Source: Sphaerolaimus hirsutus
Taxonomy: Eukaryota; Nematoda; Chromadorea; Monhysterida; Sphaerolaimidae
Length of the DNA stretch: 64,000 nucleotides
NCBI GenBank assembly: GCA_964036195.1
Contig: OZ038450.1
Coordinates: 11,038,701-11,102,700 of the forward strand
Reading direction: 5' to 3'
Position numbers and translations under genes: made by a program
Shown here: positions 881 to 62,537 of the stretch, in pieces
Layout of the letters: the number at the start of each line of letters is the position of its first letter
Position numbering within the stretch: the stretch's first letter is position 1
Notes under the pieces: model-generated
What the model was told of the DNA's origin: nothing
Database searches by the model: none
The model's input: the letters and a program-made list of their open reading frames with translations, nothing else

Positions 881-3800
881 CTACACTGTGTTGGCCAGCC
901 GCGAACAGTCGTGCATCAATGCGGACGTGCGGAACCGCAGAGATATCGACATCAACAGTGCGTGTCGCGAGGTCAATACCCACAATTCCGTGCGTTTTTC
1001 ATGTGCTTTTAATGGCACGCTAAGGAATGGAAGGGATCCATTTTTTCGGCTTTCGTCTCATCAAAATATTCCGATCAATTTTTTTAAGTGGCTTGAAGGC
1101 GGAGTTATAGATTAAGAATAAAGATATTGGGTGTCAAACAATGTATCGTCATCTACTGTGGACATTGCGTGCAAATTTTTTTACAAACACGTAAAAATAA
1201 TAATAATAAATAATATTAATACAGGGGTGGGCATCTTCAGTTACCGCTGGGAAAATGCGATAGATTGAGCTACGGTTGAGCTATCGGAATGAAATTTTAA
1301 CACAATGGAGTAGACTCCATAGGACACCTATTCTGAAGTTTGCAACCCAAACGGCCACATTTTGGGTGAATTGTGGAACACACGGTTTTTAGTGTAATTT
1401 TGTGACTTGGCGTCACCCATAGGATAAATCGAGGGTGGCATTTGAGGGGGGGGGGTCATCGGTCGTTGGTGTCGTCCCATTCTGTCGTACATCGGCCGAT
1501 TTTGATGCCCTTTGAGTATGTTGTGGTCGCGCCTACTACCAAATTCTTTTTTTACTCGAATAGTCCCCCAGTCCCGAGATAAGGGAGGTGAAGTCACAAA
1601 ATTACACTAAAAACTGTGTGTTCCACAACTCCTCCAAACTGTGGCCGTTTGGGTTGCAAACTTCAGCATAGGTGTCCTATGGAGTCTACTCTATTGTGTT
1701 AAAATTTCATTGTGATAGCTCAACCGTAGCTCAAGCTATCGCGTTTTTCCAGCGGTAACTGAAGATGCCCACCCCTGTAAATAGATAAATAATAAAATCA
1801 CCTGTAAAAAATAGAGGGCCATCGCTAGACTAGGCATGCTAGTTGATTGTTATCACGGATAATATATTTTATTAACATTTATCTAAATTCTTAATATTTA
1901 TATAACGTATTACCTCGAATTATCCCACCCCCTCGAAATACCCCCCCCCCCTTTGGAATGATTTACATCATGTACGTAATAAATACGTCATGTATGCAAT
2001 GTACATTGATGTATATTACTGCTAATTTGCATCGCAGCTACACATAAGACTAGTTTGTGTAGCTATCTACGTTTCCATGTCCAAATATACCCCGTTTGGA
2101 CACATTTATTACCTGTTTTGTGTACGCAAATGCCCACTTTTTACTACGATCCTTACGAAAATTGTAAATGTCTTTCAGGCCGGCTGCGTTTACCGATCGA
2201 ATCTTCGCTCAGCGTACAAAGACACCGCGCATCTACTGCGACCGGCCATTGCTGACGGCATGAGAAGTTTACGCGACACAGGTGGCGTGCAGCCGAAAAC
2301 TTGCTGGGACATGGAAGATTTGGTCGCTATCGCTGAACAGTCGGCACTCAAACAGGTGCTCTTGGGTTGCGTGAATGGAGTTAAACTTACTGAATTTATG
2401 ATTTTAGTTTAGTTTAGTTTTGATCGATCTGGATTGTCCTTTAACAGCTTGTAAAAGTAATCTACCGTGAATCCCTTCAGTATTATACTACTAGTGTTTA
2501 TCAGTGTTGAATAGAGATAGTAAAAATTAGACTCTTGCAGAGTTTCGCCAATGGGAGATACGGCGCCAACAAAAGACGCCGCGCACACAGCCAATTTTGT
2601 CCATATTATGCCACTAACAAAGTGATGCTGCAGGATGCCAGATTGATCATCTGTCCATACAATTATTTGATTGGTTGGCTGTTTTCTCATATGTATTTCT
2701 CCCTTCGGTTGGACAATAGGCGGATACATATCTAGAAGTTTTAATTATCGCGACATTTGCAGACCCAATGGTTCGCCGTTCCATGAGTTTGAGCACTGTG
2801 AATGCCGTGATAATACTGGTGCCACTTTCAGACCTTGTAAACGACCCTGTAAAATGTAAAATGTCGTGTGATGTGTCAAAAGTCATTTAAAATACCCTGT
2901 AATTGTACAAACGGAAGTTTGCCGCTTTACAGGTACTTTTCATGACTTTTGACACTTTTCATGACATTTTACATTTTACACGGCAGTTTACAGAGTCTGT
3001 GAGTGCCCCTGGACGAGGCGCACAACATCGAAGACGTTTGCCGCGATTCCGCCAGTTTTGAGTTCGCTTACGACGCGTGCCACGATGCTGAAACTAGTTT
3101 TGCCACTGCCGGTGTGTTGCCGTTGTGCTGATTTCGTGATCACTGCAAATTGGAGTTGGCTATATCTGTCACGGGCTCAACGTTTTTGGTCTAATTTAGT
3201 CACAACGTTTCAACTAAAAATTCCAATTTTCATTGTACGCAGCGACAGGAGGAGAGGGGTGGGGGTGTTTTAGCAATTTTTGCAACTGCTTTTCGAAAAG
3301 CAGGGTTATTTCTAGGGTTGGGACTTGATTTTTTTACTGATTAAAAACAATCAAAGGGTGGAAACTGATTTTAATTTAAAAAAATCAAAAGACAAATTTT
3401 CTGTCTACTTGCACTAGGTATTTTTTAATTTTTTTGTGCACACGTGCGCAATTTCTTATACACGCATTGGTTGTGTTTTCATGGGTTTTGGGGCATTTTC
3501 AGTGTAAAAGCTTCCATTTATTCATGCTGCCATGTAAATAATATGCCATGATATGCTAAGTGTAGTGTAAAATATCCAACCAGTGTGCTCCCACATACTT
3601 CTACAGTGTGTAACATCACTGTCAATGTATTAGCCATCTCTTATAACCTTATTTAAGCACTTTTCCATGCTGAACTTCACTTGAAGTCACAAACGTTCGA
3701 CAAGGTGATATACGTAATAAGTCGACGTAAAAATGCATATTTCTGAAAGAAATCACTGCTTATAATGCTATCCCATGACTTCACAGCCATAATATGACCA

Positions 3801-6800: not shown

Positions 6801-9800
6801 GAATATCGAGTTTCAGAAAAAAATATCGAATATCGAATATCGATATCGAAAAGTCATATCGTCCCAACCCTAGTGCTTAGTACTAAAAATTTCGGCCGAT
6901 GTTTTTAAAAAAAAAAAAACATTTCGGACGTCATGTTTTTTTTATAAAAAAAACGTTTAAAAAAAACATCGGCCAACCCTAGATAAAATGTAAATAAATA
7001 TGAGGTTATTTTTGTCAGTTTCTGATATTTTTAGGGATATTAATATGCCTAAATTTTAAAATGCTAATCCATGCTATGCTTCAGATAGATTTAATTAGAT
7101 TTTCATTTTGGGACATTTTCTGAAATTATATTTTGTTAGATTTTCTCAACATCATCCATTGTTCAATGTTAGCTGGGGTGCCTACTTTCAGAGCGAGCGC
7201 ACTTGTAGAACGGTCACAATTACATGCAGGCCGCTACTACTTGCAGGGCGAGCTTGCTTGTAGAGAGATTTCCGACCACTAGCAACGCCACTATTCGATG
7301 CACGTTACAGAATGTGTATGGTGCGATCGCGTCGCAGCGCCGCCCGTCGGCCGAGCACGCAGGGCATGGCGCCCGTGTCGCAGCACCTGTTCCCGGAGGA
7401 ATCTGTCGCGTTGCACGTGTGGTGCATGACACCGGCCATCGTGCGTCCAATTATTAGTGTTTACCGTATATCCTTGAATTACCACCTCGAATCAACTCCC
7501 CCCCCCCGATATACGCCCAGGTGTCTTCTAGCTGAGGAAATAATAACGCCCCCCCTCGAAATACCCCCCGTCTGGAAGAAAGTACATCATGTATGTAATG
7601 AACATGATGTATTAATTGATGTCAGTTTGCATCGCAACTACACATAGACTAGTATGTGTAGCTATCTACATTGATATGTCTTAATATAACCTGTTCGCTC
7701 ACGTTTATTATCAGTTTTGGGTATGTAAAATGCCACTCTGTACTACGATCCTTACTGAAAATTTCTGGCGAAACAATACCCCCCCCCCTCGAATAAGCCC
7801 CCCCTCAAAATTTTCACTTTGAAAAATACCCACCCCCTGTGGTTGAGTCGTTGAGGATTTTTGAGGAAATACGGTAAATAGTTGTTATTTCGGAATATGA
7901 ATAATGCTTTTGCCGTTTGCAGGCATTCCAAGATGCATTCGCCGATGCGCGGTCGGTGATTCTCGCCTCGGGCACGTTGTGCCCCATGGAGTCGTTCAAA
8001 GTGGAACTGGAGGTTCCGTTTTTGCAGCTGGAAGGGAGACACGTAATTGAGAGCGACAGATTTTATGTGGCGGCGTTGTCGACAGTCAGTTGAATGAGAG
8101 CTTACGGCAAACCTTTGTAAATATGTGTTTATTACACATCCTACACTAAGGTAAACTTGTAAACTTTTCAACGACCCGGTTTTTATTAAAAAAACACGTT
8201 TCCCCCCATTAAAGTTGGTTAAAAAATCCGTTTTGCTTCTTCAAAAGCTCCCAGATATGGTTATGAGTCAACATAAACATGGGACACGCCAGGTCCGGTA
8301 CCCAAAAGTTGAGTCGGTTCCGGAGCCTATAACTTTGGTTCTAGGGGGGGGGGGGCGGGGGTAAAAATTTGAAATTTTTGGGGAATATATTCTAGACCCC
8401 CCCCTTTAGGGTTGGCACTTGATTTTTTTAAACTGATTTTTAATAAAAAATCTGATTAAAAAAAAAATCAAGGGGTGGAAACTGATTTTATTTAAAAAAA
8501 ATCAAAATGAAAAATTTCTGGTAGACTTGCACTAGGTATTTTGCTATTTTTTGCGCGCTAGCGCGCAATTTCTAATACACATTACCATTGGTGGTGTTTT
8601 CATGGGTTTTGGGGCATTTTTAGTGTAAAAGTTTGCATTTATTCATGCTACAGTGTAATAATAAGCCGTGATATGCTAGTGTAGTATATAATATTCAGCC
8701 AATGTGCCCTCACATACTTCTGCAGTGTGTAGCATCACTGTCAATGTATTAGCCTTCTCTTACAGCCTTTTTTAAGCACTATTCCATGCTGAACTTCACT
8801 TGAAGTCACGAACGTTTGACAAAAGGCGATATACATAACAAGTCGACATAAAATGGATATTTTTGAATGAAATCACTGCTTATAATACTATCCCATGACT
8901 CCACAGTCATATTATGACCACAATAGACATAACAATACATTGTCTGACACTTAACATAGACATATTTTTTCTCTATACCCCCATTTTGGGCGATTTTCAA
9001 AAAAAATCGGATTTTAATTTAAAAAAATCAATTTAAAAAATTTATTTAAAAAAAATCAAGGCGTTTAAAAAAAATTAATTTTTTCCAACACTACCCCCCT
9101 TCGACTATACACTGCAGGGGGGCTCACAAGAGTGTGGGCCGCCGTATACGTGAATATTTTTTTTTTTAAACAGGTGTCCACGCGAGGTCCCGGTACCCCG
9201 TGTTTTTACAGTATAATGGGCTGCTAATCTAAAACTGTTTGGGGGAAATGATCGAAATTTGGAGGGGGTGTACACGACACCCCCCACTAATTTTCACGAA
9301 AGGTTGAGCCCTTTGGCGATCCCCCTGAGAGTGAACTGCTGGAAAATAAACTGATATTTTTTAGAATTCACTGTCCGTATTTGGCACTGGACAGCAAAAA
9401 TAAAAATTACATTAGAATGTCCATTAGAGAACAATGTATACCACTGTAAAAAGTGTGTATTTAAAAAGCGAATTTTAAAACGAAAATTTGATCTGGTACA
9501 AAAGTGTATTCGACACCCATACACAAGTTCCAGATTAAATTTCGATTTAAGTCAAATCTTTACTGCACACTTTTAAAGCTGGTTTACAATGTCCTCTAGG
9601 AGATGATTTAATGTAAAAATTCCTTAAACAACATTGCCCCAAAAATCAACCATAGTGGAGTTTCAATGGGGGTCACTGTAATGATGTCATCGATTACATC
9701 ATTCCAGTAACAAAATTCGCCTTGGGGGACAGCTTTTGTGTTGACCCCCATCAAATCTCCTCCATGGTTGATTTTTGGGGCAATGTTGTTTATGCAAATT

Positions 9801-12800
9801 TTTACATTGAATCATCTCCTAGAGGACATCGTAAACCAGCTTTAAAAGTGTGTATTTAAGATTTGACTTAAATCGAAATTTTATTTGGAACTTGTGTATG
9901 GGTGTCGAATACACTTTCGTACCAGATAAAAATTTCATTTTAAGATTTGCTTTTTTAATACACACTTTTTACAGTGGTATACATTGTTCTCTAATGGACA
10001 TTCTAATGTAATTTTTATTTTTGCTGTCCAGTGCCAAATATGGACAGTGAATTCTAAAAAATATCAGTTTATTTTCCAGCAGTTCACTCTCAGCGGGATC
10101 GCCAAAGTGCTCAACCTTTCGTGAAAAGTAGTCGGGGGTGTCGTGTACACCCCCTCCAAATTTCGATCATTTCCCCCAAACAGTTTTAGATTAGCAGCCA
10201 GTTATACTGTAAAAAACACGGGGTGTCGGACCCCTGGACGGCGATTTTTTCAAAAAAAAACTATTCATGTATACGGCGGCCCACACTCAGGTGAGTCGCC
10301 GACCTTCCCCAGCCCGTATAAAGTAGTGGGGGGATGTCGAGTAAATAATCTCAAAATTTCGAATAAATCCCCCCACTACAGCTGAAGATGTGGCGTCCGG
10401 CACCGACTCAAAAATTAGGTGCCGTACCTGGCGTGTCCCCAGTTTATATATGTAAATCATACAGGTGCCAGTACGTTGTGATGTTGTATATAGCCATAGA
10501 ATGGATGTGAAGTCATGGGATACTATTGTAAGCGGTGATTTCTGTCAAAAATATGAGTTTTTATTAGCCATCCCTTCTATACGTTCGTGACCTCGCAATT
10601 TGTAGATCCTTACATATTTATATTTAGAAAATATTTATTGATGTTTATATATTTATGATAATTTATTTATTAAAGATACCATAATTGTAATGATAAAATT
10701 TTAATATTTAATAACCTGTTCCAGGGTCCAACTGGCCAGGAAATGCGTTGCACACAGCGGGAAAAGTCGAGCGCGTGGTGGCAGGTGCCAGTTCCGCAAG
10801 TGGAGAAGTGAAAGCGCAAACGGCAAAAGCGACGCGAAATGGCAAGTAAATTGGCGAAATCTAACTAACTTCTCTTCTCTTTTGCCATTTTACTTCACAA
10901 TTCACTTAGATTTTGCCATTTCACTTGGCGTTTGCCATTTGCGCTTTCACTTGTCCACTCGCGGAACTGAGCCCAGGACGAGCTGGGTCGCATCGTGCTG
11001 CAAGTGTGCACCCGCGTGCCCGGTGGCGTGCTCGTCTTCTTCGCCAGCTACACGGACATGGAGCGGGCCCACATCAGATGGGGTGAACGCGGCCTGCTCA
11101 AGGCCATGCTCGAATTCAAGGTGAGTTGCATTGAGTTTCATTCTTGTTTCGTGAGACATCAGGGTTCGTTAGCTGAATTGTGCCCTGATGAATAGGTAAT
11201 ATAGCAAAAAAAAACATAATAGCAAAAATGGTTGTCTGTTTATCCAACTTTACCACTGAAAAGTGCCACCTCTGAATGAATAGCTATATACCGTATTTCT
11301 TCTAATAGAACGGCATACCTACAATAGAATGGCACCTCCAATAGAACGGCAGGTTTTGGCATGTTTTTGTGTTCACGAAAACAAAAGAACAGCAGCCCCC
11401 AATTGAACGGCACCTCCAATAGAACGGCAAGTAGGACTTATGTTGGGAGTGTGCCAAAACACAAAAATCAGTAGAAAATGGATGGTGAGAACATTCAAAG
11501 CATTCAAATAGCTGCTAAATGTCAAATTGGTGCTCTTACATTAAAATATTGCTCAAGCTTCATTAAAAATAAGGCTCATGTTCACATGAGAAATGTGTGA
11601 AAAAATTGGTGAAAAAAGTAGAACGGCAGCCTCCAATAGAACGGCACCTCCAGTAGAACGGCAGGTAAAAAAGTTGCCGAAAAAAATACAACGGCGCTCT
11701 TCTATTAGAAGAAATACGGTATGTTGCTAAATAAAGTCGGCAGACGTATCGCCCTACAAACATTTGCGTCACTCTCTCCAGTGGAGAGTGCATGACGGCA
11801 TTAGGTATTGTGACGCAATATTTTAACCACTGGAATAGATCGGGTCACGTATGCAAACTTGGCCCTTATCCCAGTTACCAGTTGCATATTATACAAATGA
11901 GAGTGAAAACTCAAAGTTAGCTAAAAATCGTTAAAATTTGCTTCGCTTTGCCAATTTCCACCTTCATAATCGCTATTTTTGTTTATATACATGGTTATAT
12001 AGCTATTGTGAGCCTATTTTATTCATATAAATAGCGGATTTCGACATTTTGGCCGGCTGCCAGGTTCTCTTCTGTTGGAACGGAGCCAACTTATGAAAAA
12101 TAAAATAAAAACAAAAACGGTAGTTTGAACGGTAAAACGGTAGTTTGAACGGTCAAATTCTTTACGAGCAACGTTGAAAATGTAGATAACTAGGTCGTGG
12201 CACGCACGGAGGCAGCGAAACGTCCATTTTTCTTTTAATATGATTTTCTTTTTCAATTTCTAGCGTCCGCGTGGGACGCAAGTTTCGTTGTTCGCTCTAT
12301 TCACGAGCGAATTCTAACTCTCCGATTTTGTAGGGTGAAATGTCCGCCGACTTTACCAATGGTGCTTGATTGTAACAGGCCAGGCCTATTTCGCACATAT
12401 ACCGGTCTCGCACATACGCCCGTTTCCCACATGGATGAAACCCGGACCGCACATATGCCTGTTTCGCACATAACTGATGCTATGTGCGAATCGGGCCTAT
12501 GTGCAAAACGGGCCTATGTTAACATAACCCCCCCCCCCCCAGCAGCACAATGAATATGTGAAAAAACTAGTCAAATGAGTTTTCAACATATTTGTCACTT
12601 TTTTCAAGTGAAAAAAGTGAAAAGTAAAGTGACTTGTCATTTGACTTCTCAGTTTTCAACAAATTTATCACTTTGTTCAAATGAAAAACTTCCCATCAAA
12701 TCAAATGACAAGTCACTTTACTTTTCAATTTTTTCACGTGAGTGTGTTGAAAACTCATTTGAACCTGGAGAACTCGTGCTGCTGAGGGTGGTAATGTTGG

Positions 12801-27484: not shown

Positions 27485-27665
27485 GGGCTAGTTCTGCAAA
27501 TTTGGAAGTAAGAAGTAAAATGGCAAATGCGAAGTGAAATTACTCTTTTATTTTTATATTTTATTTCGTTTTTGCTAATGTACATGCCAATTCTCTTCGT
27601 TTTTGCCAATTTTTTCTCTATTCACTTCTTAATTCATTTTACTTCTTAATTTGCGGAACTGGCAC
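27485..27665 (-). mobile_element. Introner-family element outside coding sequence (copy 1)
   Basis: A 181-bp element downstream of the RING stop codon. Ends read GGGCTAGTTCTGCAAAT and ATTTGCGGAACTGGCAC and it is flanked by CTG on both sides. The termini match the intron-forming copies, so the family also inserts in non-coding DNA. It is repeated with the tandem unit at 31183-31363 and 34881-35061. Confidence 0.7.
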
Positions 27666-28870
27666 CTGGTTTTCCAAATATTATCACCCAAAGGACGTTT
27701 GCAACCCTAGCGGCTGGATTTCACAGAACGACCGTGTTACTCGTCCGATCATTTTGTGTTCCACACGGCTATATCTTTGTAGTCTGTCAGCGATTTTGTT
27801 TTGGATTTGTGCGAGTATTTCCACGATTATATATACTTAGGTAGACAAATAATTTCGTAAACTTTTTAATGATTTGTGGGTGGGTGCCGTCGTTACACGA
27901 GATGTGGTCATCTAAAAAGCTTATTCAGGGGTATTCAGGAGGCCGCGCCCTCTCACCTGGGGTAAGCCATAAATATGTCAAAAATAGAAACTTGTTCTAC
28001 CAATTGTTCACACCGCATCGACTTTTTACGATCCTGGGTAGGTCCCCGGCTACAAGCTACCGGTGTGAATTTCTCGTGTCATTATTTTCGTGGCCAGGAT
28101 GTGTTTTCGGACGACCTATTTATAATAATTTCGTTGCCGTCTTAAGGGTAGAAAATCGCCAGTGTCCCGCCGATGAGTTGCACCTAATATTTATTCAAAA
28201 TTCAAGTTTGAAGTATTTGTTAAATCATATTAATTTGCACATTTTTCAATCATACTCGCAGAAACACTCACTACTAAATATTTATCAAATTATTTGTTCT
28301 TAGTAGCGTGCGTTTGTTTTAAGACGCTTGTCTACGTAACCGCCGTCACTGTTGCCTGTGTATTCCGCCAGTAACGATTGCCAAAGGAATCTTAAACTTT
28401 TTACTTTTTTCTATTTTTAATTTCATCACGGGAAAACAGTTAAAAATCTTTTTTTCTCGAATGTTTTCTGTGGGTATTTTTAGTTTAAAATAATTTGTAA
28501 TGCAAACGCACAATACAACCGGTCAATGTGCCTAGTTGACAACCTAGTTCCAAAGCTGATGATGATAAACATATTTTGAACACATTTTAATTTACTGAAA
28601 TGAATCTTTTTGTTATCAACGTCGGCAGTAGTTGACGGACTCATTATTCCGGTAAACTCAAATGTGTTCAAAACATGTTGATCAGCTTTGGAAATTCCAG
28701 TTGTCAACTAGTGGGCGTGGTAGTGTCAATTGCACATGGACTTATTGGCCGTGACAAACTGAAACCCTGTGAGATTCAAATGTAAATGGTCCAAAAATTC
28801 AAATGTAGAATTTAGTGGGGAAAAAAATTGAAAACTGAAAAAACTTTTTTTAATAAATAAATAAATTCAG

Positions 28871-28909
28871 GCGCTCTACTCCAGAGAGTTTGCCATCGTT
28901 ATCTGCCAG
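28871..28909 (+). other. Exon-like 39-bp segment kept in all three units
   Basis: Sequence starting GCGCTCTACTCCAGAGAG, preceded by TTCAG and followed by the donor GTATGA. It is open for 13 codons (ALYSREFAIVICQ). Copies lie at 32569 and 36447; the third has TTCAAG before it. It could be a 5' untranslated exon of the downstream RING genes. The evidence is weak. Confidence 0.35.
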
Positions 28910-29345
28910 GTATGATTTACACCTCAAACACGCCTAATTAGTGAGATTTTCGGCCCGTGTGATACCTCGCTTAGTCAGGGTTGCAGAGTTAGGGTAATAT
29001 TTGGGTGTGTGTGACCGTTTTTTTTGCATTTCGTTATTGCGACATCTGGGAAAAATGAAATTATTTCAATCTTCGTTAGTTTTGGTATGTCACGATGACT
29101 GTTCGTTATGGGTGAGAATGTGCTTGAAACGTGTCGAAAGTTTCTTAAAGTTATTTCTCACAGAGGTCACTTTACTCCGCCCACACTTCGTGCACATTTT
29201 CAACCTGCCATGCAGCTAAGGGATTTCTTTTCAAATTCCACACCTCGGATACAGCGCCTGTATTCCAGTTGTTCTACCGTAAATTAAAGTATGGTCGACC
29301 CATGTTAAACGGCGGGAAGTGTGACTCAGGCGGATAATTTGTTCG

Positions 29346-31027: not shown

Positions 31028-31182
31028 GTCGCCTTGGAGAGTGGGAGAATGGGTCCATTTTTACGTTTGATTTTGGATTTAGGGCACTAGTTAACAGTGA
31101 GAGTGCTGGGGTTGGGAGGTCTTTTTGGCCAGTTTTGTTCGGGTAACTTTGATTTGGTCCGAAGAAATCAAGCGAAGAACTG

Positions 31183-31363
31183 GGGCTAGTTCTGCAAATT
31201 TGGAAGTAAGAAGTAAAATGGCAAATGCGAAGTGAAATTACTCTTTTATTTTTATATTTTATTTCGTTTTTGCTAATGTACATGCCAATTCTCTTCGTTT
31301 TTGCCAATTTTTTCTCTATTCACTTCTTAATTCATTTTACTTCTTAATTTGCGGAACTGGCAC
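31183..31363 (-). mobile_element. Introner-family element, tandem-unit copy 2
   Basis: Same element as at 27485-27665, shifted by exactly 3,698 bp, with the same CTG flanks. Confidence 0.68.
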
Positions 31364-34725: not shown

Positions 34726-34880
34726 GTCGCCTTGGAGAGTGGGAGAATGGGTCCATTTTTACGTTTGATTTTGGATTTAGGGCACTAGTTAACAGTGAGA
34801 GTGCTGGGGTTGGGAGGTCTTTTTGGCCAGTTTTGTTCGGGTAACTTTGATTTGGTCCGAAGAAATCAAGCGAAGAACTG

Positions 34881-36919: not shown

Positions 36920-39900
36920 ATGTCTCGGAGCAATCCGATCAGACTGGGGTCGAGCGATGATGATGAACCGATCGCCCACAGGTGGGTGCTTTGCGCTCGG
37001 GGGTCTCTAAGTGGTGGGGGCGCTGCCCCCTAAAATCGGCAATCTATTTTGGGGGCTGCTCAGGTATTTACATATCAAGATTTCGGGCTACTATCTCTTA
37101 AATCTCCCGCCTCTCCCAAATCTACCATCTCTCTAGCTATCTGGAGTAAATTTTAAACGATTTTCCTCCATTTTTTACCTTCACATTCAAAATAGCTATC
37201 TTAGGCTATATACACGGTTATAAATATACCTATTGGCTATTTTTTAAATATATTTTAAACAATTTTTCAAATTTTTGGCTACTTTAGTACGGTATATTCG
37301 AGGCTAGCGTTGGTGGCTATTGCCCGAGAAAATATGACAAATTGTGCAACTTTTAGATGATTTTCTATTTACAAGGTTGCAATAATAATCACATTTGACT
37401 TCCTCAATGGTTTCGCTTCTGCCTGCGTAGGCTTCGATCCAGGGCCCGTGCTGTCCCGGCTGCCGGCAGCGGTAGGGCGGAACGATCTACAGTTGCCAGA
37501 ATACATGTTCGTACTGTTATCTCAATCATTGCCGATGAGAAACCTCCACATAGGCTCGCCACACGCTATTGACATCGACACCAAATGTCAACTGGTTCCA
37601 TTCCTAATTCAAAGATTGCGTTTGAACGTCGTTTGTCCACTCGTCAGCAAGGGGGTCAGCACCAGTTGACATTTGGTGTCAATGTCAACTAGCGTGTGTG
37701 GGCCCATAGAAACGCCAATCCTTGGCTCTCATGCACAGGCGACAACATTGAGCGAGTGCCGCGCCGGCTGTCCCTTTTTCGCCGAAGGAGAGCCGCCGCG
37801 GCGGCGGCGACGCACGGCGGGCGGAGATGAGCAGGTTTCTGCCGCGCTGCGCTCGCACGTGGACGCCCACCGCCTCATGGTCAGGAACGAGCGCATAGCC
37901 GAGCAGCGGAGGCTCCGGTCGCTGCAGCACCGCCAGCGCGAGCTGGTGCCAATCCCGGACACTAAAGAGCCCTGTAAAGTGTCAAATGTCACGCAACGTG
38001 TCAAAAGTCACGGAAAATGCCCTGCAAAATGGCAACCGAGTTGCCATTTCGCAGGGCATTTTCCGTGACTTTTGACACGTTGCGTAATATTTGACACTTT
38101 ACAGGGCTTTTTACAGGGTCCGGGAGTGCCCCCCGGCCGCCCGTGCCAATCCCGGCGAGGAGGACGCGTTCGCCCGCCGAGTCGCGCACGATTTGGAGCG
38201 GTTCTTTTTCGCCGACGATCAGAACACCGACTTCATGGTGGTCAGTTTCACCGCCAGTCCGGAAGACTTGCCGCAGTTGGACGCGGCGCAGCAGCTGGCG
38301 GTCAGTGTGGATGCTACTGCGGTGGTTACGTCCGAGGCGGCGACTATGGATTTCCAGAGTGTGGAAACTTCTGCGACTCAGACGGTTTGTGGGATGGAAT
38401 TTCTGGTGTGAACTGTGCACTGCGGGTCTCATTGATTGAGCATAGCGTGTAGGGTTCAAACGGGAGCCCGAATCCCGATACTTTTGGGGATTCAGCGGTC
38501 CCGATCCCGAAGCTCCGATCCCGATCCCGAAATCTGAAAAAAGCGAATCCCGACGATCTCTGTCTCGAAAATTTTCAAATTTCAATCCCGATCCTGAAAA
38601 AAAATAATACAATCCCGAGCCCGGAAAAAATTACCAACTTTATTACATGCCATTTTTGTACTAATAAATGTGAATGGAAACCTCCAATACCCACTTTATG
38701 CAACTTTTCTGGCATATGTGTTTTTTAAGGCTTTTTTTGTCAAAAAATCAGGGAAAAGAACATGTCTATTAGAACCTTTTCAAAATGCCAATACCGATCC
38801 CGAATAATGCCAATCCAGTCCCGAAACCCCAATCCCAATCCCGAAATCACAAAAAAAACGAATCCCGATCTCGAAATCTCAAAAAGCCAATCCCAATCCC
38901 GATCACGAAAAGTCAATCCCGTTTGAACCCTAATAGCGTGTTATACACTGTTGATCTTGTCCAGTGTGTAACCACAGCTGGGGCTGCATTCATTTTGCCC
39001 CACACTTGCTATGGCCGCCACAGTTGTCTTCAATTCAATGTTCAACGCTCGCAGGTGCAGTCCAGCGGCCAGTCGTCGCTCACGTCCAATAGTGGATCGG
39101 ATGCGGCGGCATTGCCGCCCCGCCCGATGCTGCGGCCCCGCCGCAACGCCCTCTCGGCTCAAGGCTCGGTGGGCTCCGGCCGGCCGGCCAGCGGGCAGGC
39201 GCGCGTCGCCACGCAGCGCGTCGCCCCCACCACGGTGCTGTTGGAGTGGACGGGCGCGGCGCCCGCCGTCGCCGCCAGCGTCGCGCCGTCCACGTCGGCG
39301 GCCGATCAAGGCGACGCGGCCGTGGATCGGCGCAGACGCATACAGGATGCGCTCGCCGATGTGATAGTGCACCACAGGGACAGCGTGCAGCGCCTGTTCT
39401 CTAACAACGACGCTGCGGCTAGTGCCCAGGCGAATTCGACGCCGAGCTTCAGCGACGCGACAAGACAGGTTTGCCTTTTCTGTTCTTTAGGTAGTGTGGA
39501 AACCTACCAGTGATCTATCCGAATAATGAAACAAAAATTATAGTTTTTCATCTAGGGTTGGAAAAAAAACGTTTTTTTTAACTCGATGTTTTTTTTTTTT
39601 AAAAAACGTTTTTTTTTTAAAAGCTCCCAGATATGACCTAGTGTATATCAGACACTGGCAATACTCTGTGATGTTAAATATGACCGTATAATGGCTGTGG
39701 AGCCATGGGATAGCATTATAAGTGGTGATTTGTGTCAAAAATATCCATTTTTTGTCAACATATCGTTCGTATATCGCCTTATAGTCGAATGTTCGTGACT
39801 TCAGGTAAAGTTTGGCACGGAATGGTGATCAAACAAGGTTATAAAAGGAGGTTGTTACTTTGGGAGTGAAGTTACACACTGTGGAGGTACATGGAAGCAC

Positions 39901-46833: not shown

Positions 46834-48745
46834 CTAAAGATCCTCCAGTTTTTCGACGCAGTCCAGCCCGCAGACGGGACACAAGCGCACGTGGTGCTGC
46901 ACCTGCGGCAGGGTGGGCGGCCTAGGGCAGTCCCAAACCCTGTAAAGTGTCAAATGTCATGCAGTGTCAATTGTGTATCCAAAGCTTATGTTTGATGATA
47001 AGCTGTAGATACAAAACAGATCTGGATAGAAAGCATAAGATTTGGATACAATTAACACTGCATGACACCTTACTTTACATTTGTCATGACAATTGACAAT
47101 TTACAGGGTCTGGAATTGGCACCTGGCGTGGCGGCCGACCCCTTGACCGCAGTACATGTCGGCCAATTCCTCCAGCAGACGCAGATAACGTTCCCGCTGC
47201 GCCGGCGACAGTTGCACGTTGCTGACTGTGGCGTAGTCCGCGTGGTCGGGCCACACCTGGTGCCAATTCCGTGCCTTGTCCAGTGTCAAGGAAAGTGATC
47301 AGAAAAGCTTGAATGTGTATGAAATGACGAAAAGTGACACGGATGTTGTTTAGTGAGGATATGTAGAATATAACAAAGCTGTGAGTGATGAGCCAAATTG
47401 TCACGCCTCTTTCACAACTAGAAATTGTAACTTAACGTTCCACTTGCAATTTTAGCTGGTCACTAATGTAACTTGTAACTTTATCACTTTAACTTTTCTT
47501 ATCACTTATCCTGTGACTAGGCAAGGTGCGGAATTCGTACCTGCATTCTATCGCTGCTCATTGCTGTCTCCAAGGTGTCCGCAACTAAAAAAAGACAAGG
47601 GAAATAAATAAAGAGTTCCCGGAAAAAGAGAGAAAACACGATGGCATGCTTACACGAGAGGTGCGCCTTGTAGCCAGCGATGCCAAAAGTTGCCGCCTGG
47701 CTAGGTTTTCGCTGCCACGCCACCGTAATTCGGCACCGTTCAATGGTCGTTCTGAGGTACTCTTGCCCCTTCATTCGAGCCACGTCCTCAAACCGGTCGC
47801 GCGACACCACTAAACCTGAAATGGCGTCGGTATAGCTTCAATCGTTTAATAGGCGTGCTTTGATGCGCATGTAGGATACCTGCGTGCAGATGCGCCTGCT
47901 GCAGCAACACGAGGTCGTCGTAGGCTTTCAGCGACCGCTGGTCGACCGTGCGCGCGGACGTGGTCACCAACAGGCTCTCTTCTATCAGCTTCTGCAAGTG
48001 AATGTCCCTGATCACTATACTCGGCGGACCGCAAAGTATGCGCAGAATGCTATCATAATTGAATGAATAAAATCTTGTGACAAATTTTGTAATTAATAAT
48101 TCCACACTAAAAACGAAACTGTACGATTTTTGGCTCAATATTCAGAGTTGTTATGGTATGTTTACGTAAAAAGTGTGATGTCCGCCGAGTATGCGACAAT
48201 ATACAGCGGCGCATTCGTAAACGGATATCAAAATCATGTGACATGCAAACCTGCAACAGAATGTTGTCCTCCGGCGACAGGTGTCGCTTTTTGAGCGTTA
48301 TCGGTGCGTAGCAGGTGACCGGGTGCCCGTTGCGCAGCAGCGGCCCCATCACGGCTAGAAGGCCGCGCAGCACCAAACAACTATGCCTGAGCAATTAGGT
48401 ATAGCTCAGTGACACGGCGTCAGTCCCTGACGACAAAGCGAGCTGGACATTACGGAATGCACGCCACAAAAAAATAGATCCAGGTGGGTCTGCATTTACA
48501 ACCATACTTAAAATACAAAAAAATAATCAAAAAATATACGATATCGTTTTTCCACCCTAATTCAACCATAACCTCGGAATAAAAACCTCCCTCTTCGTTT
48601 ACTGTCGCGACGCGCAAATACCCACCAATAAGCGTCGACTAACAGGTCCGAAGTGAACGAACCTCTCGTCGCTGGCGCTGCAGGCGATGTTGCACGCGTC
48701 CAGGTACACCGGCCGGGGAAGCGGGCCCACCCCCTCGCCGGCCAT
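46834..48745 (-). CDS. NYN/PIN-domain ribonuclease (Regnase/N4BP1-like)
   Basis: Exons on the minus strand: 48644-48745 (ATG, MAGEGVGPLPRPVYLDACN), about 48252-48380, 47880-47991, 47654-47815, 47541-47584, 47123-47256, 46834-46921; all joins agree in phase except the first. Matches to the ZC3H12/Regnase NYN fold: VYLDACNIA (usual VVIDGSNVA, with the first catalytic Asp), LRNGHPVTCYAP (usual ERGHTDITVFVP), KAYDDLVLL followed by GLVVSRDRFEDV (usual YDDRFIV and GIVVSNDNYRDL), so the acidic active-site residues are present. The C-terminus has CPVCGLDC, a possible zinc site, and ends VEKLEDL. Family members cleave mRNA stem-loops or viral RNA in the cytoplasm. No CCCH finger is seen. Its last two introns are introner-like elements. 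The 5' end may be incomplete. Confidence 0.72.
46922..47122 (-). mobile_element. Introner-like hairpin element, last intron of the NYN gene
   Basis: On the minus strand the intron starts GTGCCAATTCCAGACCCTG and ends CAGGGTTTGGGACTGCCCTAG, so the arms pair almost base for base. The flanks are CCAG and CTAG (a CAG/TAG duplication with one change). It is a normal GT-AG intron in phase 2, joining GRHA to RPPTLPQ. The length is 201 bp. Confidence 0.82.
47257..47540 (-). mobile_element. Introner-like element, penultimate intron of the NYN gene
   Basis: On the minus strand it starts GTACGAATTCCGCACCTTG and ends CAAGGCACGGAATTGGCAC plus CAG; CAG also precedes it. The 284-bp intron is GT-AG and phase 0, joining SSDRMQ to VWPDHADY. 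The first bases (GTACGA) differ from the usual GTGCCA but the TTCCGC core and the 3' arm match the family. Confidence 0.8.
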
Positions 48746-52354: not shown

Positions 52355-55300
52355 TCATCTCCGGCCAGAGTAGCCGGTCACGTCGACTCGTTCGGCTGGG
52401 CCCAGACTAAATCCGAGCCCATCGTCAGCTTCAGACTCCGCCTCCGCCCCCGGCTCCGTCTCGTCTGTCGGCGTCGCTGCCCGCTGCGCGTCCTCCGCTG
52501 TCTGCGAGTGGATAAAAAATTGCCTCATCTGGGTGATAATGCGGTCGGTCTGTCAGACGTCAGTCCCGCACCCGGTCAAGTGTAAAGTGTCAAATTTCAT
52601 GTAAAATGCCAATTAAAATAAAATAGAAAGTTTTATTGCTTGATGTTTTGACATTTTGCGTGACATTTGACAATTTTGTGAGATTTTACATGCCACACTT
52701 TACTTTACATTTAACAAGGTGCGGAACTGCCCAGCTGTTAGCTGTTACACAGGATCTGTTCTATCACCGTCTCCCGTTTTTGGACGGCTCCCATGCACGT
52801 TTCAATATTCAACAATTGAGTGTTTCGTCCGGCTGCATCGGTTGTGAAAAATTGCTGTTTTTCTTCAAAAGTTGCCCAATTTTCGGAAACACTTGAAAAA
52901 CCTCTTGTAACCCAAGGTGCCAGCATCAGTTAGGCAACAGCCGAGACACGGGCCAAAGAAGCACGCGCACTCACTAGATCGATCATTGAGCGGGAGTTGG
53001 GCGCCCCGGCCAGGTTGGTGCGCATGCGCGGCATCGGCCTTGCCATGAACATGGGCGCGTGGTTGTTCGCGTTGCTCGCCGACCGCGCCATGATCGCTTG
53101 CTGCTGCTGTTGCTGCGCACGGATCGGCGGAAACATACAGGTAAATCGAAAGTTTCTCAGTATATAGCTACCGTATTTACTAGACATATCTACTTTAATA
53201 AACCCGTACCTAGAAATACAAGGTCTCAGCGAGCTGAGGAAAAATAACCCCCCCTCGAAATACCCCCGTCTGAAATGTACATGATGTAATTATCGCTGCC
53301 AGTTGACATCGCAGATACACCTACAGTGTAGCGATGTACACTGATGTCCAAATGAATCGTTCCCAGTCAAATTTATTACCGGTTTTGTGTATGTGAAAGC
53401 GTTTTCTTTACCGTGAATACGAAAATTTCTGACGATATAATAAAGCTCGAAATACCCCCAAAAATTTTCACTCTGAAAAGTAAACCCCCCTGGGGTATTA
53501 CGACGAAATACGGTAGCCACTCACGGGATTGAACTGCCTCTGCAGTTCGTTGAACAGGTGCTGGGCGCTGGCCGGGTACGCATACAGCCCCACCCCGCCC
53601 GCCGCGGTGAACATGCGCACCGGCTCGCGCCGAAGGTCGATTGCTGGGAAACGCTGCTCCCGCAGTTTGTTCTGCGGATGCATACAGGCCGCCCGTGAGA
53701 TGAAACGCGAAAAACAACGACAAATCCTAAACCAATCAAATGAGAATGAGTTAAGCGCAGTCAGTAAAAAGTCAGTCCCCGAAAGAAGATGCACATAGTG
53801 CCTTTACCACCACCGTAGAAACAAATAAAACAAATGAAAATCCTAATTATACGATTATCGACAGCCGCGTATGGCCCCCGGCCAGTCGTGAAGGGCGACC
53901 GGCCGCCAATGCCGAGCGACGGGTCGTGCTGCAGCACGCCGCGGCCAACGCCCGGTCCTTTGTGACGCTGAGCTCCGCGCTGCTCGGCGGCGGGTAAGTC
54001 ATGTCGAAAAGGTGGAATAGCGGGCACGGTGAAACGCTTCTCGGCCGCAACGGTGTTCTGCGACTTGTGTCGCGCACACTGCGGCGGACCGACTGGGCGC
54101 GCAGAGGCGACCGGGGCCGACTTTTGACCGTGAAACACCGACGATAGCATGAGATAAAAAGTCTCTGTGGCGAAGCTCATATCGGCATTGCTGTACAGCG
54201 TGGGCCCCAGCTCGGCGGCAAAGTCCTTCGCTGCTTTTTGCTGGTTTTCGATGAAACGCCAGCGCCAAATTTCACCCACAAGTGGGTCACGCTGCACGAT
54301 GAAGACAGTCTACAGTTAACGCGAGAACACACTCTACGGAACACACGAAGAAAACGAAAAAAAGTCCACCAGGAAAAGAATGAATGTTAAGTTCTGTTAC
54401 TATGACTTGTTTTCTCTATTTATAATGACCATGTGCTTGTTTTGCCACACGTTTATAAAGTCCACGGACCGCACACTTTGCACTGAAATTCACCATGGGA
54501 TGTGAAAATTTTTTTTTCAATATTTTTGCATCACTCATTCGTTCAAATATGTCAAGATTTTGTGCAAAGTATCCGGTCCGGTCAGTAAAAAAATCATATT
54601 CAGGGTGAAAAATACTTGAAACCTGAACCACCCAGAACAAAAACAACAACAACATCAACACACTAAATGCCGCACGGTACACTGGAATTCTGCGTTCTGC
54701 ATTCGAATACAAATACGAGCAGAAATACAAATGCGGAAACGAGAAATTCACCGGATGCAATGCGTCTGGAGGTGGGGTTAAAAATTAAGCTCTGATGCAA
54801 ATTGCGCGACAAGAGAAAAATTCCTTTTATCTTTCCACGATGCGTCCCTTTATACCAAAAATAACGATTATTAAAAAACACCATTTCAGCACTTGTTCGA
54901 AAAAGTTCGAATGCGGGGGCAAAATTTTAAGTGTACCGTGCGACAGTAAAAGTTTTCGAAAAGGAAGACTCGAAAAAATAAAAATTGATTTTTTGAAACA
55001 AAGCGGCCAGGCAAGTGCTGCAATTCCAGACAATGTGGAAACTACGAGCGGCAACTACGAGCAGTTTTGGCACGACCAAATCAACTATTCCCGGCTATTA
55101 AAGCAAAAGGCAAAGGCACTAAAAAACCGATCTGACACTCAAAAAAACCGACCTCAATGAACATTTTCTGTATGAGATTTAGCACTTGAGCTTGGAGCGC
55201 GGCGGCGCTTGATCCCGCGTGCTGCACGGCCATCTGCGCCGCTTGCACGGCTTCCCGCTGCTCGTGCCGCAGGTGCGGCAACAGCGACTCGAGCATTATA

Positions 55301-58300
55301 GGGACGCCTGCGACAAGGCACGTGTAGAGTGGAGTGGATATCAAGAACGAGAACACCATGAAAAAATCTCGATGTCATATTTTTAAATATCAGTTCAAAA
55401 ATCCCTTACTTATTTAAATACATTTTCTCCAGAGATTTATTTTTCTGAGGAGAAAATAAAAATATCTAATTTTCCATGCATTTTTTCAAAGTCGTTTCAT
55501 TACATTTTCGTCTTATAAAATTTTCAGATCTTAGTTGCTTATATCTTCAATGCTACATTCACAGGGAAACACACTCATGCTACAATCTAAGAAATCCACA
55601 GGGAAACACACTCTCTAAAGATATGAACTGGCTGGTGGACGGCTGAATGTTGGGCATGCCGACGCCGGCGGCGTATCGCGGCTGCGCGCTGTGCACCCCC
55701 TTCTCGAAGTCTTCCCAGGCCTTCTTCTGGTCCTCCTCCGACAGGACCTCGTCCTCCACGTGCGACAGCAGAGTGTCGTGTTCGTGGTGGACTACTAGCC
55801 ATTGCTTGCCCAGGTCGGACAGCATCATCTCGCCCAGCAGACGGTCGCTGCGCAGAATGGACGGATAAGAGATGGTTTGATAAGTAATATTTATTATATT
55901 TACAATTAATATTTATTATATTAAAAATTAATATTTATTGTATTTATATTTAATATTTATTATATTTATAATTAATGTTTAATAATTAATATTTATACGA
56001 TTTAACTTTGCACATGAAACGGTTGCACATACGGTTAGGGTGGCAGAATTTACCGTACCGTACCGTACCGCATTTTTGGGAAATTTACCGTACCGTACCG
56101 TACCGTTTACCGCACTTTTAGAAATTTACCGTACCGTACCGCGTACCGCATTTTCCATAATTTACCGTACCGTACCGCGTACCGCACTCATTTACCGCAG
56201 AAAATGCGGTAAATTTGACTCAGATTGACTTTAAATATGCCAATTTATTGATGACAATTAATGTGGTGTGTTGAAAAATTTTGCGCGCAAGCGTGCAAAT
56301 GTCACAACACTGTTTTCCTGATTTGAAGCCCTCTCATTTTATTGATATAAGTCATGATTTACACTAGTATAATGTGTTTATAAAATCAAGCCATGTGCTT
56401 CAACACGCTCTTAAAGTGTAAATTTCACATAGTTTGAGCAATTTTTCACCACTTTTAGCTATTTTGCTTCCTTTTCTTCCTTCTACACCTTGAATAAACC
56501 TATATATTGAGCCCATAGGAATTTTATGTCATCATACTGTTATTGTGTGCTTAAGTCCATTTATCAAATTGTGGCATTGAATTTGGTGTCAATTTATGAA
56601 GTAAAAGTTGTCTGTAGTCCGGCATTGATACATTTCTGACAATCGGAAATTTACCGTACCGTACCGTACCGCGTACCGCACTTTTCAGATTTACCGTACC
56701 GTACCGTTTACCGCAAAATTGAAGATTTACCGTACCGTACCGTTTACCGCGAAATAGAAAATTTACCGTACCGTACGGTTTACCGCAAGGCCGTACCGTC
56801 TGCCACCCTACACGGTTTACACCGGTTACATGCATATAATAAATCTTTTTCCGACCGTATTATTAAAATTATAATAAATATTTGAAAATGTGAGAAATAG
56901 CTCGAATGAGGGAAAAATATGAAATTTTGAGTTAAAAATAAAACGGCACCAAGGTATCTACATCGTCAATAGTGCATCTGGTATCCAGACGCAGAAAATA
57001 CCTCCTTAGCCGTCTCACCTAGGAACTTTTCCCTTCGGCCTCTCTTCCAGCGCATTCGGCTCCAACAAAATGGGATCGAATCGATACAAGTCCTCCAAAT
57101 CATTGGCGGTAAAGTGCCGTTTGATCGCTTCAGCATCAACAACTCGCAGCGAAGTGCTGGTCTTGGTGACTTGGCGGTCGTAGACGCGCTGCTCCATGGT
57201 GCCCTGGGCGACCAGACGGTACACGTAGACGGGTTTGGTCTGGCCGAAGCGGTACACCCGGAAGAAGGCCTGCCTGTCCTTGATCGGGTTCCACGAGGCG
57301 TCGAAAATTATGACCCGAGGGCGGTCCCAGACCCTGTAAAATGGCCTGTAAAATGTCAAATGTCATGCAAAGTGTCAAAAGTCATGTAAACTGCGCTGCA
57401 AAATGGCAACCTAGTTGCCATTTTGCACGGCATTTTACATGACTTTTGACACTTTGTATAACATTTGACATTTTACAGGCCATTTTACAGGGTCTGGGAC
57501 TGGCACCCGGTTGGCCGCCGTCAACGAAATGCCCTCGCCGCCGGCCATGGTCGATATGAGCATGAGTCGCAGTCGCAACTGTTCCGGGTCGTTGAACGCC
57601 TCGATCATGGCCGACCGGCGCTCGGTGCTGCTCGAGCCGTCCAGCCGCAAATAGTCAATTTTCTGCACCCACGACCAGTCGGTGCTGGCGACGCCGTCGG
57701 GCACGTTCCGGCCTTCCCACCAGTCGCCCGCGTCGCGGTAGCGCCGCAGGAATTGCTCGATTATGTTCAGCACCTCCGTGCGTTGCGAGAACACCAGCAA
57801 CTGCGGTGGGGATTAGGGTTGATGCATGTTCGTTAGAAACGTTTTGTTTTTTTCAAGCTGCAGCGGAAATTTGTAGAATTTACTTAATCTCATATTATTA
57901 AAAATTTTCATTAGGTTTGTGGCATTTCTGACGCCAAGCTTTCATTTCTGCACACCAAGATGTAATGAGCAACGACTTTAGTATAAAAGTCAGTCAATGT
58001 TTCCATATGCGGCTGAGGAATGTAGAATAACAATCATTGTTTGGAATCACAATGTTTGGTGCTGATAAAAACGACCGCAAGAGATACCATGGTATACAAC
58101 GTGCTAGCTTAGATTCACGTATCCATTTTCCATAATTCAGGCACCCACACTTCCAACCCACCTTATCACCGATCTCCTCGCAGCGTCTGATAATCTCGAA
58201 CAACATGGTGAGCTTGCCGCTCAGCTGCATGTCGTATCTGTCGGCGTCGGCGACGTGGCCCGACCACCAGGCGCACGTGCGCAGCTCCGCGGGCGTCGAA

Positions 58301-61300: not shown

Positions 61301-62537
61301 ACATGACTGCAAAGTATTCGAAATCACAGGGCTATCACAAAAACAGGGGGGTTTTGTTGAAATGTCCCCTCTTCACTGAATTTAATTTTTACCGTGCCTT
61401 TCAGATAACATTTTGGGGCAAATTTTATGCAACATTTTACAGGGGGCTGCCTGCGCGATCATCACAAAAGCACACCGACCTGTTTCTGACAGAGGCGGAT
61501 GGACAACACAAATTCGTACTTGTCGGGCAACTGGCGCAAATCTCGGCACCGTTTGATCTCGCTGACCCACTCGCGCCGGTGCACCACGCCCTCCAGTTTC
61601 CTGTGCAGCACCAGGGCGCGCTGCTTCATGAAGCGCACGTCGGACCTGCCGCTGTCTTTGAACGAGCCCGCCTTGATGGGATTGGCGAACTGGTTGGCGA
61701 ACTCCTTGCGCGAGCCGAGCAAGTGCGGCCGGACCCACTGCACCATGGTGTAGTACTCGTTCAGGTTGTTCTGCAGCGGCGTGCCCGTCAGGCACAGTCG
61801 CCGGCGCGTCTCGATCAGCTCGACGCACGCGAACAGGATGGTGTCCTCGTTTTTGAACGCGTGCGCCTCGTCGCACACCACCATGTCGGGGCCTGTGGAC
61901 ATTGGAGAGGGGCAACGTTGATGTGGGCAATCGTGTCAGACTAACGACTTAGCAGCGAATACGGGGTCTATTCCGCAAATAGGAAGTAAATAATCATTTG
62001 AGTAGCACTAAAAATAGAAGACATGAAATGGAGTCAAACGTGAAGTAAAGTGAGAATTATTTTTTTAGTTATAATTTCACTTCTCACTTATGAATTTACT
62101 TAGTTTTTGACTTTAAACTTTTCACCATTTCACTTATTACTTCTCCCACTAGGGTTCAAACGGGAATCCGGACAAAATCCGCAAAATCCCGAAAATTTTC
62201 GGGATCCCGTTAGAACCCTATCACCCACTCACTCAAGCGGGTTATTTCACTTCTACACTTGCGGAATTCGCACCTGGAACCGAACGAAACCACACAATTT
62301 AAAACCCGCACCTTTGCAAAGCAATTCCCGGGCCTCTTCCATATATCTCTTCTTGACCTTCGACAGCTTTTTCGGCTCACCCTTCTTTTTGCTTTTGGAG
62401 CGCTCGGTGTCGGGCCCCTTGACCATGTTGACGAACATGTGGTAATTGGTTATGAGCACGCCGCCTCTGTCGTGCCAACGGCGCGCCAGCTGCAGTCGTT
62501 TCTTCGGGTCGCTGGACGACGCGTCGATAAGCGTCCA
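52355..62537 (-). CDS. ATRX: ATRX SNF2-family chromatin remodeller, 5' partial (13 exons)
   Basis: ATP-dependent DNA translocase working with DAXX to deposit histone H3.3. Minus-strand exons: 62312-62537, 61480-61892, 59387-59563, 58795-59134, 58162-58376, 57507-57800, 57019-57314, 55612-55847, 55153-55307, about 53853-54291 (donor unsure), 53525-53671, 52975-53112, 52355-52501 (stop 52355-52357). Seen in order: [22 protein letters not shown] (motif II); [13 protein letters not shown] (III); VWTHP; a charged Lys/Asp/Ser/Arg insert; [21 protein letters not shown] (IV); [16 protein letters not shown] (V); [25 protein letters not shown] (VI); [16 protein letters not shown], matching the YHEHDSLLDHKEEE region specific to ATRX; a poly-Gln run near the end. 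The N-terminal ADD domain and Walker A lie beyond the right edge. The intron between motifs V and VI is a non-AG introner-like hairpin. Confidence 0.92.
52557..52731 (+). mobile_element. Introner-family element inside the last ATRX intron
   Basis: A 175-bp element with ends ACGTCAGTCCCGCACC and GGTGCGGAACTGCC, flanked on both sides by CAG (plus strand). It lies within the intron that separates exon 52975-53112 from the terminal exon, not at the splice sites. Confidence 0.65.
53169..53515. mobile_element. TACCGTATTTACTAG MITE in an ATRX intron
   Basis: Ends TACCGTATTTAC and GACGAAATACGGTA, with CGAAATACCCCC blocks. It nearly fills intron 53113-53524. Confidence 0.68.
56037..56809. mobile_element. 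AGGGTGGCAGAATTTACCG MITE with TACCG arrays
   Basis: Arrays of TACCG at both ends (inverted) are capped by AGGGTGGCAGA and TCTGCCACCCT. The duplication is ATACGGTT / ACACGGTT, one mismatch. In the ATRX intron 55848-57018. Confidence 0.78.
57315..57506 (-). mobile_element. Introner-like hairpin element forming an ATRX intron (non-AG end)
   Basis: On the minus strand this 192-bp hairpin runs from GTGCCAGTCCCAGACCCTG to CAGGGTCTGGGACCGCCCT plus CGG, and CGG also precedes it. It separates SLTAANR from [10 protein letters not shown], which are contiguous in ATRX. Because CGGGT is shared by both junctions the cut point is ambiguous by five bases, yet no placement gives an AG end. The nearest AG, in the ACAG of the stem, would add 19 bases and break the frame. 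Confidence 0.8.
59649..60187. mobile_element. TAGGGTTCAAACGGG MITE with GGGATC arrays (TSD CATGCAAG)
   Basis: Perfect 8-bp flanks; many GGGATC units. In the ATRX intron 59564-61479, next to 60235-61285. Confidence 0.86.
60235..61285. mobile_element. TAGGGTTGGGAATTTC MITE with GGTTC/TTCGG arrays (TSD GTACACAC)
   Basis: Perfect 8-bp flanks. Arrays of CGGTTCCGGTTCTCGG lie at both ends around a long AT-rich core. In the core, 60804-60906 and 60908-61000 are inverted copies of each other. Confidence 0.85.
61965..62273 (-). mobile_element. Introner-family element within an ATRX intron, carrying a nested MITE
   Basis: Ends GGTCTATTCCGCAAAT and CTTGCGGAATTCGCAC match the family, with CGG and CTG as imperfect flanks. 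It sits inside the intron 61893-62311 but starts about 40 bp from the donor. It has been entered by a small TAGGGTT element at 62150-62220. Confidence 0.6.
62150..62220. mobile_element. Miniature TAGGGTTCAAACGGG element, 71 bp, nested
   Basis: Ends TAGGGTTCAAACGGG and CCCGTTAGAACCCTA. The duplication is TCTCCCAC / TCACCCAC. Inserted in the introner-family element 61965-62273. Confidence 0.75.

Follow-up and report, generated by a model that had tools for sequence, protein, structure and literature searches.

How animals gain introns is largely unsolved. Removal of transposons at the RNA level has reportedly just been described in nematodes: SOS splicing is said to have been found in C. elegans by Zhao et al. 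in 2026, and its factors are AKAP17A and CAAP1 beside RTCB. A 2025 paper is said to report the horizontal spread of introner transposons. As far as the sections used here go, the published record frames the question as follows. Gozashti et al. (2022, PMC9860276) surveyed 3,325 genomes and, among animals, met introners in two groups only. For 168 new introns of Caenorhabditis, GT-AG in every case, a study of nematode introns detected no source sequence (PMC9169325). Szafranski et al. (2007, PMC2374985) describe TG acceptors of U2-type introns in 36 human genes, where they serve only as alternatives to an AG close by and depend on it, and in tunicates such as Fritillaria 95% of introns escape the GT/AG rule (PMC13326754). 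Finally, duplication of a CWG target is a mark of the NuwaI group in the PHIS superfamily of transposons, as described in the part of PMC4482050 considered. Our literature search went by titles and the first lines of abstracts, with subscription papers and preprints mostly outside its scope, and returned no introner from a nematode or from a Harbinger-type element.

The window (the whole 64-kb stretch of DNA analysed) contains a family of short elements with terminal GTGCCA and CNG repeats. Six copies interrupt reading frames and three lie elsewhere; their positions, with one repeat given separately, are as follows.

2816..2818, plus strand: 5' copy of the 3-bp repeat of BRIP1a, CTG
2819..3011, plus strand: putative introner copy BRIP1a, element plus 3' repeat copy; repeat CTG/CTG, 3' end TG, not AG
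10785..10976, plus strand: putative introner copy BRIP1b, GTTCCGC subfamily, between AWWQ and DELGRI; repeat CAG/CAG, GT-AG
27485..27665, minus strand: copy of the GTTCCGC subfamily outside any gene identified, flanked by CAG
37946..38135, plus strand: putative introner copy RING2 (the 'second RING' gene), between QREL and AARANP; repeat CTG/CCG, no AG
46922..47122, minus strand: putative introner copy NYN1, phase 2; repeat CAG/TAG, GT-AG; open frame only
47257..47540, minus strand: putative introner copy NYN2, decayed, phase 0; repeat CAG/CAG, GT-AG; open frame only
52557..52734, plus strand: copy outside any gene identified; repeat CAG/CAG
57315..57506, minus strand: putative introner copy in ATRX; repeat CGG/CGG, no AG
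61962..62273, minus strand: copy nested in an ordinary GT-AG intron of ATRX; repeat CAG/CCG

The initial annotation had described six hairpin elements coinciding with introns, and all six were located where it had placed them. The 3-bp CNG repeat reported around them is present in every case, one right copy now reading TAG. The single terminal sequence attributed to the family is not identical in all six: BRIP1a carries one mismatch and NYN2 begins GTACGAATTCCG. With at most one mismatch allowed, 19 instances of this motif fall in the window where 3.9 would be expected; none of 100 shuffles reaches 19, and 10 of these instances are ends of the elements described. Sense orientation, said to be invariable, holds for the five asymmetric copies, while NYN2 reads GT...AC on both sides and cannot be oriented. 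Among the three sites called non-intronic, 27485 and 52557 do lie outside identified genes, but the copy at 61965 sits inside the ATRX intron 61893-62311: it is intronic, yet not itself the intron. One point had been overlooked, namely that only three of the six frame-interrupting elements end in AG; the other three finish with CTG (BRIP1a), CGG (ATRX) and CCG (RING2). Since the repeat is direct, moving the cut within it yields no GT-AG pair in these copies.

Two side observations concern the copies themselves. Those at 10785-10976 and 27485-27665 form a second subfamily, with GTTCCGC ends and a different inner sequence, which has the terminal GTGCCA and the CNG repeats in common with the first. 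The copy at 27485 recurs identically at 31183-31363 and 34881-35061, at a spacing of 3,698 bp, through either a recent tandem duplication or an effect of assembly.

Ordinary introns in the same genes were placed by eye from homologous exons, and all six (four in BRIP1, two in ATRX) are GT-AG:

2356..2540, plus strand: ordinary BRIP1 intron, GT-AG
2674..2762, plus strand: ordinary BRIP1 intron, GT-AG
7441..7922, plus strand: ordinary BRIP1 intron, GT-AG
8085..10724, plus strand: ordinary BRIP1 intron, GT-AG
57801..58161, minus strand: ordinary ATRX intron, GT-AG
61893..62311, minus strand: ordinary ATRX intron, GT-AG, containing the nested element copy

The window holds other repeated structures as well. 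An inverted repeat at 9118-10300, within a BRIP1 intron, has 504-nt arms that are 91% complementary around a 175-nt spacer and is apparently another large foldback element. Smaller foldbacks at 1220-1779, 29643-30208 and 33341-33906 have arms of 189-192 nt, a 182-nt spacer and 93-94% complementarity; the last two lie 3,698 bp apart, like the tandem repeat of 27485-35061. Stretches at 38446-38700, 59614-60221 and 62947-63916 are repetitive and open in several frames as PIPIP, SRSRSR or NRNREP repeats, which would mislead gene prediction.

In all six window cases an open frame returns once the element is excised together with one of its repeat copies. At two of the junctions the protein so joined gives a gapless alignment with a solved homologue, which we take to be human in both cases: ATRX to chain 9l06_K and BRIP1a to FANCJ chain 9ej9_A. 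The BRIP1b protein shows a weak Helicase_C_2 match, slightly below cut-off, which lies only downstream and does not cross the junction between Q and DELGRI. At RING2 and the two NYN junctions the support is the open frame, with no Pfam match spanning any of the three; a Zc3h12a-type NYN match lies near the NYN junctions, below its cut-off (E 4e-4), and the name 'RING' found no Pfam support in the stretches tested.

The inverted repeats of the window elements can base-pair, as would be expected of a substrate of SOS splicing: fold z-scores of the six range from -4.8 to -25.9 (60 shuffles each). The description of most copies as nearly perfect hairpins suits ATRX and RING2, with 90% and 95% complementarity over the reported arms; complementarity is 81% in BRIP1a and 88% over 57 nt in BRIP1b, and NYN2 is badly decayed. 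The consensus of 91 genome copies, 195 nt long including both repeats, folds into a single hairpin of about -170 kcal/mol with a stem of about 90 bp, and the copies are only about 10% diverged from it. Conservation of the two arms is equal overall (p 0.59), with a slight difference in the ATTTTACA tract (0.054 vs 0.090), and neither a branch point nor a pyrimidine tract is therefore conspicuous; a better-conserved 3' arm was accordingly dropped as a sign of either.

We then turned to the whole assembly (348 Mb, 762 contigs). The two-ended pattern GTGCCANTYCCR-N(135-165)-YGGRANNGCC gave 1,820 matches (899 + 921), and the reversed pattern, searched genome-wide as a control, gave none. The hundreds of copies anticipated by the initial annotation are thus exceeded. 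The ends of the pattern are strict, so that decayed copies are missed, and GT is demanded by the search itself; any claim about the GT therefore rests on its orientation and not on its presence. For closer study we took 98 copies outside the window from among the first 100 or so matches, two of which lie in the window; the 98 cover one contig arm, within the initial 11.2 Mb of contig 1. L001-L004, obtained with an earlier symmetric pattern, are not included because the second pattern does not match them. The left repeat of the sampled copies is CAG in 44, CTG in 41, CGG in 3, CCG in 2 and another triplet in 8, and the 3-bp repeat pairs are exact in 80, approximate in 16 and absent in 2. The family thus has both the target site duplication and the terminal inverted repeats of known introners.

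Across the genome the repeat pairs are CAG/CAG in at least 500 copies, CTG/CTG in at least 301, CTG/CAG in at least 144, CAG/CTG in at least 49 and CGG/CGG in at least 3; these are lower bounds counted with a two-base gap before the right repeat, and each reversed control gave zero. The CNG repeat, which the initial annotation did not recognise, hence agrees with the CWG duplication of NuwaI transposons of the PHIS superfamily, as given in the part of the description consulted (PMC4482050). The genome has 163 matches to DDE_Tnp_4, a Harbinger-type transposase domain. Most of the matches listed have near-equal scores and extend about 190 nt beyond what the profile requires, as young copies of one gene with intron sequence would. 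An introner within the transposase gene, suggested by a 192-nt excess, was discarded: the one copy read did not match the element profile. Nor were GTGCCA ends found around the transposase in the one 3.2-kb stretch read, and one pattern for the element had no match in viral contigs. As to the host, the N-terminal domain of nematode cuticle collagens has 56 matches in this genome; 14 control genomes are silent but, not being shown to be animals, carry little weight. A match to Ly-6_related, a family named after C. elegans, was also obtained. On their own these signals point to a nematode and could also come from related Ecdysozoa. SL1 RNA had no match here, and since its controls were silent too this speaks neither way.

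The main coding test framed each flank independently, after seven near-identical copies had been dropped (98 to 91). Coding signal is present in both flanks of 49 of the 91 copies, and in 38 of these both flanks are in sense and share a frame under exact removal, with the GT end upstream. The remainder are one sense copy out of frame, one antisense copy in frame, one antisense copy out of frame and eight with flanks on opposite strands. Random re-pairing of flanks gave a mean of 14.2 and a maximum of 24 in 10,000 trials, against the 38 observed. The bias toward GT-first orientation is 38:1 (p 1.5e-10). The element being almost palindromic, this bias hardly comes from the hairpin and points instead to the ends, mainly to the GT, the other end being C-rich. 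An earlier codon model, trained on window exons and then on sampled copies and so partly circular, had scored joined flanks on both sides in 50 of 98 cases, 42 sense and 8 antisense.

Homology places many of these junctions inside known domains. In 12 of 21 different sense ORFs a Pfam family spans the junction, with ten families represented: Rcd1, tRNA-synt_1d, CBS, Sugar_tr, E1_dh, Fer4_ETF_QO, Oscp1, Ly-6_related, 7tm_2 and LRR_6, the CBS and LRR_6 matches being below the curated cut-off. The other nine gave no match, weak and implausible matches or, for a cadherin, a match stopping at the junction; the eight antisense ORFs had no Pfam match at E 0.01. Similar copies at intron positions in unrelated genes, a feature of introners, are thus numerous. 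The OSCP1 gene (L030, L031) and the E1 dehydrogenase gene (L077, L078) each seem to hold at least two introner copies at different positions, the two E1_dh copies being about 0.6 kb apart.

Such data can be set against the view that the copies are recent disruptive insertions, found in null alleles, haplotype variants or pseudogenes. Low divergence from the consensus would suit that view, as would the fact that removal from transcripts is something we infer from sequence. However, 38 of the 91 sampled copies lie in consistent frames and in one orientation, CNOT9, arginyl-tRNA synthetase, BRIP1 and ATRX stay conserved around their copies, and two genes, for OSCP1 and E1 dehydrogenase, carry two copies each. 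We regard disruption as very improbable.

The 38 frame-consistent sense copies end in CAG (21) or CTG (17), so that, with three of six in the window, the AG expected at the 3' end of a canonical U2 GT-AG intron is often missing. Exact joining nevertheless fits: the CTG-ended copies in CNOT9, arginyl-tRNA synthetase and AMPK-gamma-1 give gapless alignments to solved chains. Joined in the same way, CTG-ended copies also match Pfam Rcd1, Sugar_tr and Oscp1 over equal lengths. Altogether, solved homologous proteins are continuous at five junctions (ATRX, BRIP1a, CNOT9, arginyl-tRNA synthetase and AMPK-gamma).

Could the CTG copies be spliced by the ordinary rule at other positions, through an internal AG or a shifted donor, with a few codons gained or lost? 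Of the 17 CTG coding copies, 16 have an ACAG 18-19 nt short of the 3' boundary. The residue left after it is 19 nt long in 15 of the 16 and shifts the frame; the 18 nt of AMPK-gamma are in frame. With the element's own GT as donor, an internal AG that is in frame and open lies in the last 30 nt of 6 of the 17, the other 11 having none. A wider scan, with donors allowed between -45 and +60 and acceptors between -75 and +30, took in 21 non-CAG copies: the three of the window and 18 others of the genome, among them one near-duplicate. Of the 21, 18 offer one or more shifted GT-AG pairs that keep the frame, whereas L030, L077 and L079 have no in-frame pair in the ranges tested. The closest shifted pairs listed change residues, a few keeping the length by swapping some; in BRIP1a the nearest pair would delete the DE of the DEAH box, and the solved homologues fit the exact junction with no insertion. 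Ordinary splicing at other sites is therefore, in our estimate, improbable, and exact removal would be the best reading of the sequences, if not a proven one for every copy.

The repeats at the two ends of the element differ in composition. From the lower-bound pair counts, CAG:CTG is 644:350 in the right repeat and 549:445 in the left, and the mismatched pairs are skewed in the same sense, CTG/CAG 144 vs CAG/CTG 49 (p 5e-12). Because CAG and CTG are reverse complements, they would be expected equally often without selection; AG is in excess at the right end. It appears that the GT end is required, that AG is favoured and that TG is tolerated. Part of the CTG/CAG excess could come from an asymmetry of transposition, and the counts mix coding and other copies. 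Within the sample, CAG:CTG is 23:17 in sense-coding copies vs 22:15 in the others, no difference (Fisher p 1.0). A requirement for G after CTG was considered and set aside: strong in the sample (29/32), it shrinks genome-wide to 223/301 vs 336/500 for the mirror control, C before CAG (p 0.047).

These biases of orientation and of AG are not predicted by sequence-blind removal, whether by pure hairpin recognition or by DNA excision. The main rival for the TG copies is excision guided by the hairpin and independent of the spliceosome, as in SOS splicing: paired inverted repeats would mark the element, an endonuclease would cut at its base and RTCB would join the exons. Strong hairpins speak for it, and so does the apparent indifference to AG, seen in the equal CAG:CTG ratios of sense-coding and other copies; in the window the three lowest fold z-scores belong to the three copies that lack AG; and the host is a nematode, SOS splicing being metazoan according to the sections consulted of a review (PMC13247085). 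Yet such a process should ignore both orientation and AG, while the copies are oriented 38:1 and AG is favoured 144:49 at the 3' end. In coding sequence, moreover, no difference in folding energy separates CAG from CTG copies (p 0.27), and hairpin strength was for that reason abandoned as support for hairpin-dependent removal. On balance we consider this reading unlikely, though clearly less so than displaced ordinary splicing. Somatic removal from the DNA, as in the excision of ciliate IES, would likewise be exact and would act between short direct repeats, but such removal would sense neither the direction of transcription nor an AG, and both leave a bias here; we give it next to no credence.

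The reading we prefer, and hold to be somewhat probable from sequence evidence, is that a NuwaI-like MITE acts as an introner, with the element supplying the GT and the target duplication supplying AG or TG. Non-autonomous hairpin MITEs would insert into sites resembling C-CWG-G and duplicate the 3 bp CWG. In an exon such an insertion would become an intron: the first bases of the element, GT, would serve as donor, and the far copy of the target repeat as acceptor, AG if the target was CAG and TG if it was CTG, and removal would give back the original coding sequence exactly. This presupposes that the RNA is freed of the elements in the first place, presumably by the spliceosome, and that TG is a real 3' splice site, perhaps aided by the hairpin, which would bring the ends together, and by the conserved ACAG 18-19 nt upstream; TG sites may then drift to AG under selection. 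The initial annotation's central claim, that a DNA transposon family makes introns, is supported by the copy number, the 3-bp target duplications, the restoration of frame in conserved genes and the orientation bias, beside which we observe the excess of 3' AG. Against the NuwaI-like introner, its 5' site GTGCCA matches the U1 consensus poorly, within a stem of about 90 bp any branch point should be hidden, and TG is not known to serve as sole acceptor in human introns; the evenly conserved arms, the like CAG:CTG ratios of sense-coding and other copies and the weak genome-wide preference for G after CTG weigh on the same side.

A bolder version is possible but doubtful: a nematode may carry hundreds of introns that start with GT, lack AG and derive from a hairpin transposon, removed exactly by a hairpin-assisted route (a TG-accepting spliceosome or a domesticated SOS-type pathway) and maturing to GT-AG introns by a single T-to-A change.

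The 1,820 matches, the youth of the copies and the coexistence of CAG and CTG ends amount to a natural experiment on the requirements of new introns, in which the GT end seems indispensable and AG a dispensable help. About four in ten of the apparent removals would proceed without AG, which would make the element a mass producer of new, partly rule-breaking introns. With a nematode as host, the step from emergency removal at the RNA level to a permanent intron becomes testable.

Compared with known systems, for which we draw on parts of the papers cited, the family shares some features and departs in others. Like the introners of the genome survey (PMC9860276), its members are non-autonomous DNA elements that carry target repeats and inverted ends, and they would form introns mostly leaving the mRNA unchanged; as in the survey's Chrysochromulina case, one splice site would come from the element and the other from the target repeat. 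The survey's introners have GY/AG sites, whereas here many copies have TG at the exact boundary and are nearly full-length hairpins; in the sections considered nematodes are not named among the hosts, and here the genome is that of a nematode. The introner elements of Amoebophrya (PMC7789003) share hairpin inverted repeats, direct repeats of 3-5 nt at exon borders and non-AG ends; they belong to a dinoflagellate and show no clear terminal dinucleotide, unlike the present GT end, which is oriented with the gene, and the 3' CWG, of which only the middle base varies. With SOS splicing (PMC13247085) the family shares inverted-repeat DNA transposons removed from animal mRNA, a removal that here we infer; in contrast, it would take place at exact sites sensitive to orientation and to AG, and the copies lie in the assembled genome and in conserved genes. 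Human TG acceptors depend on a nearby AG (PMC2374985), while here TG would be the only acceptor that restores the frame exactly. In Fritillaria the GT/AG rule is broken by 95% of introns (PMC13326754); here the six ordinary introns placed obey it, and departures go with a single element family. The NuwaI group, mainly found in animals, has the same 3-bp CWG target duplication (PMC4482050), and it is by this duplication that the element is likened to NuwaI.
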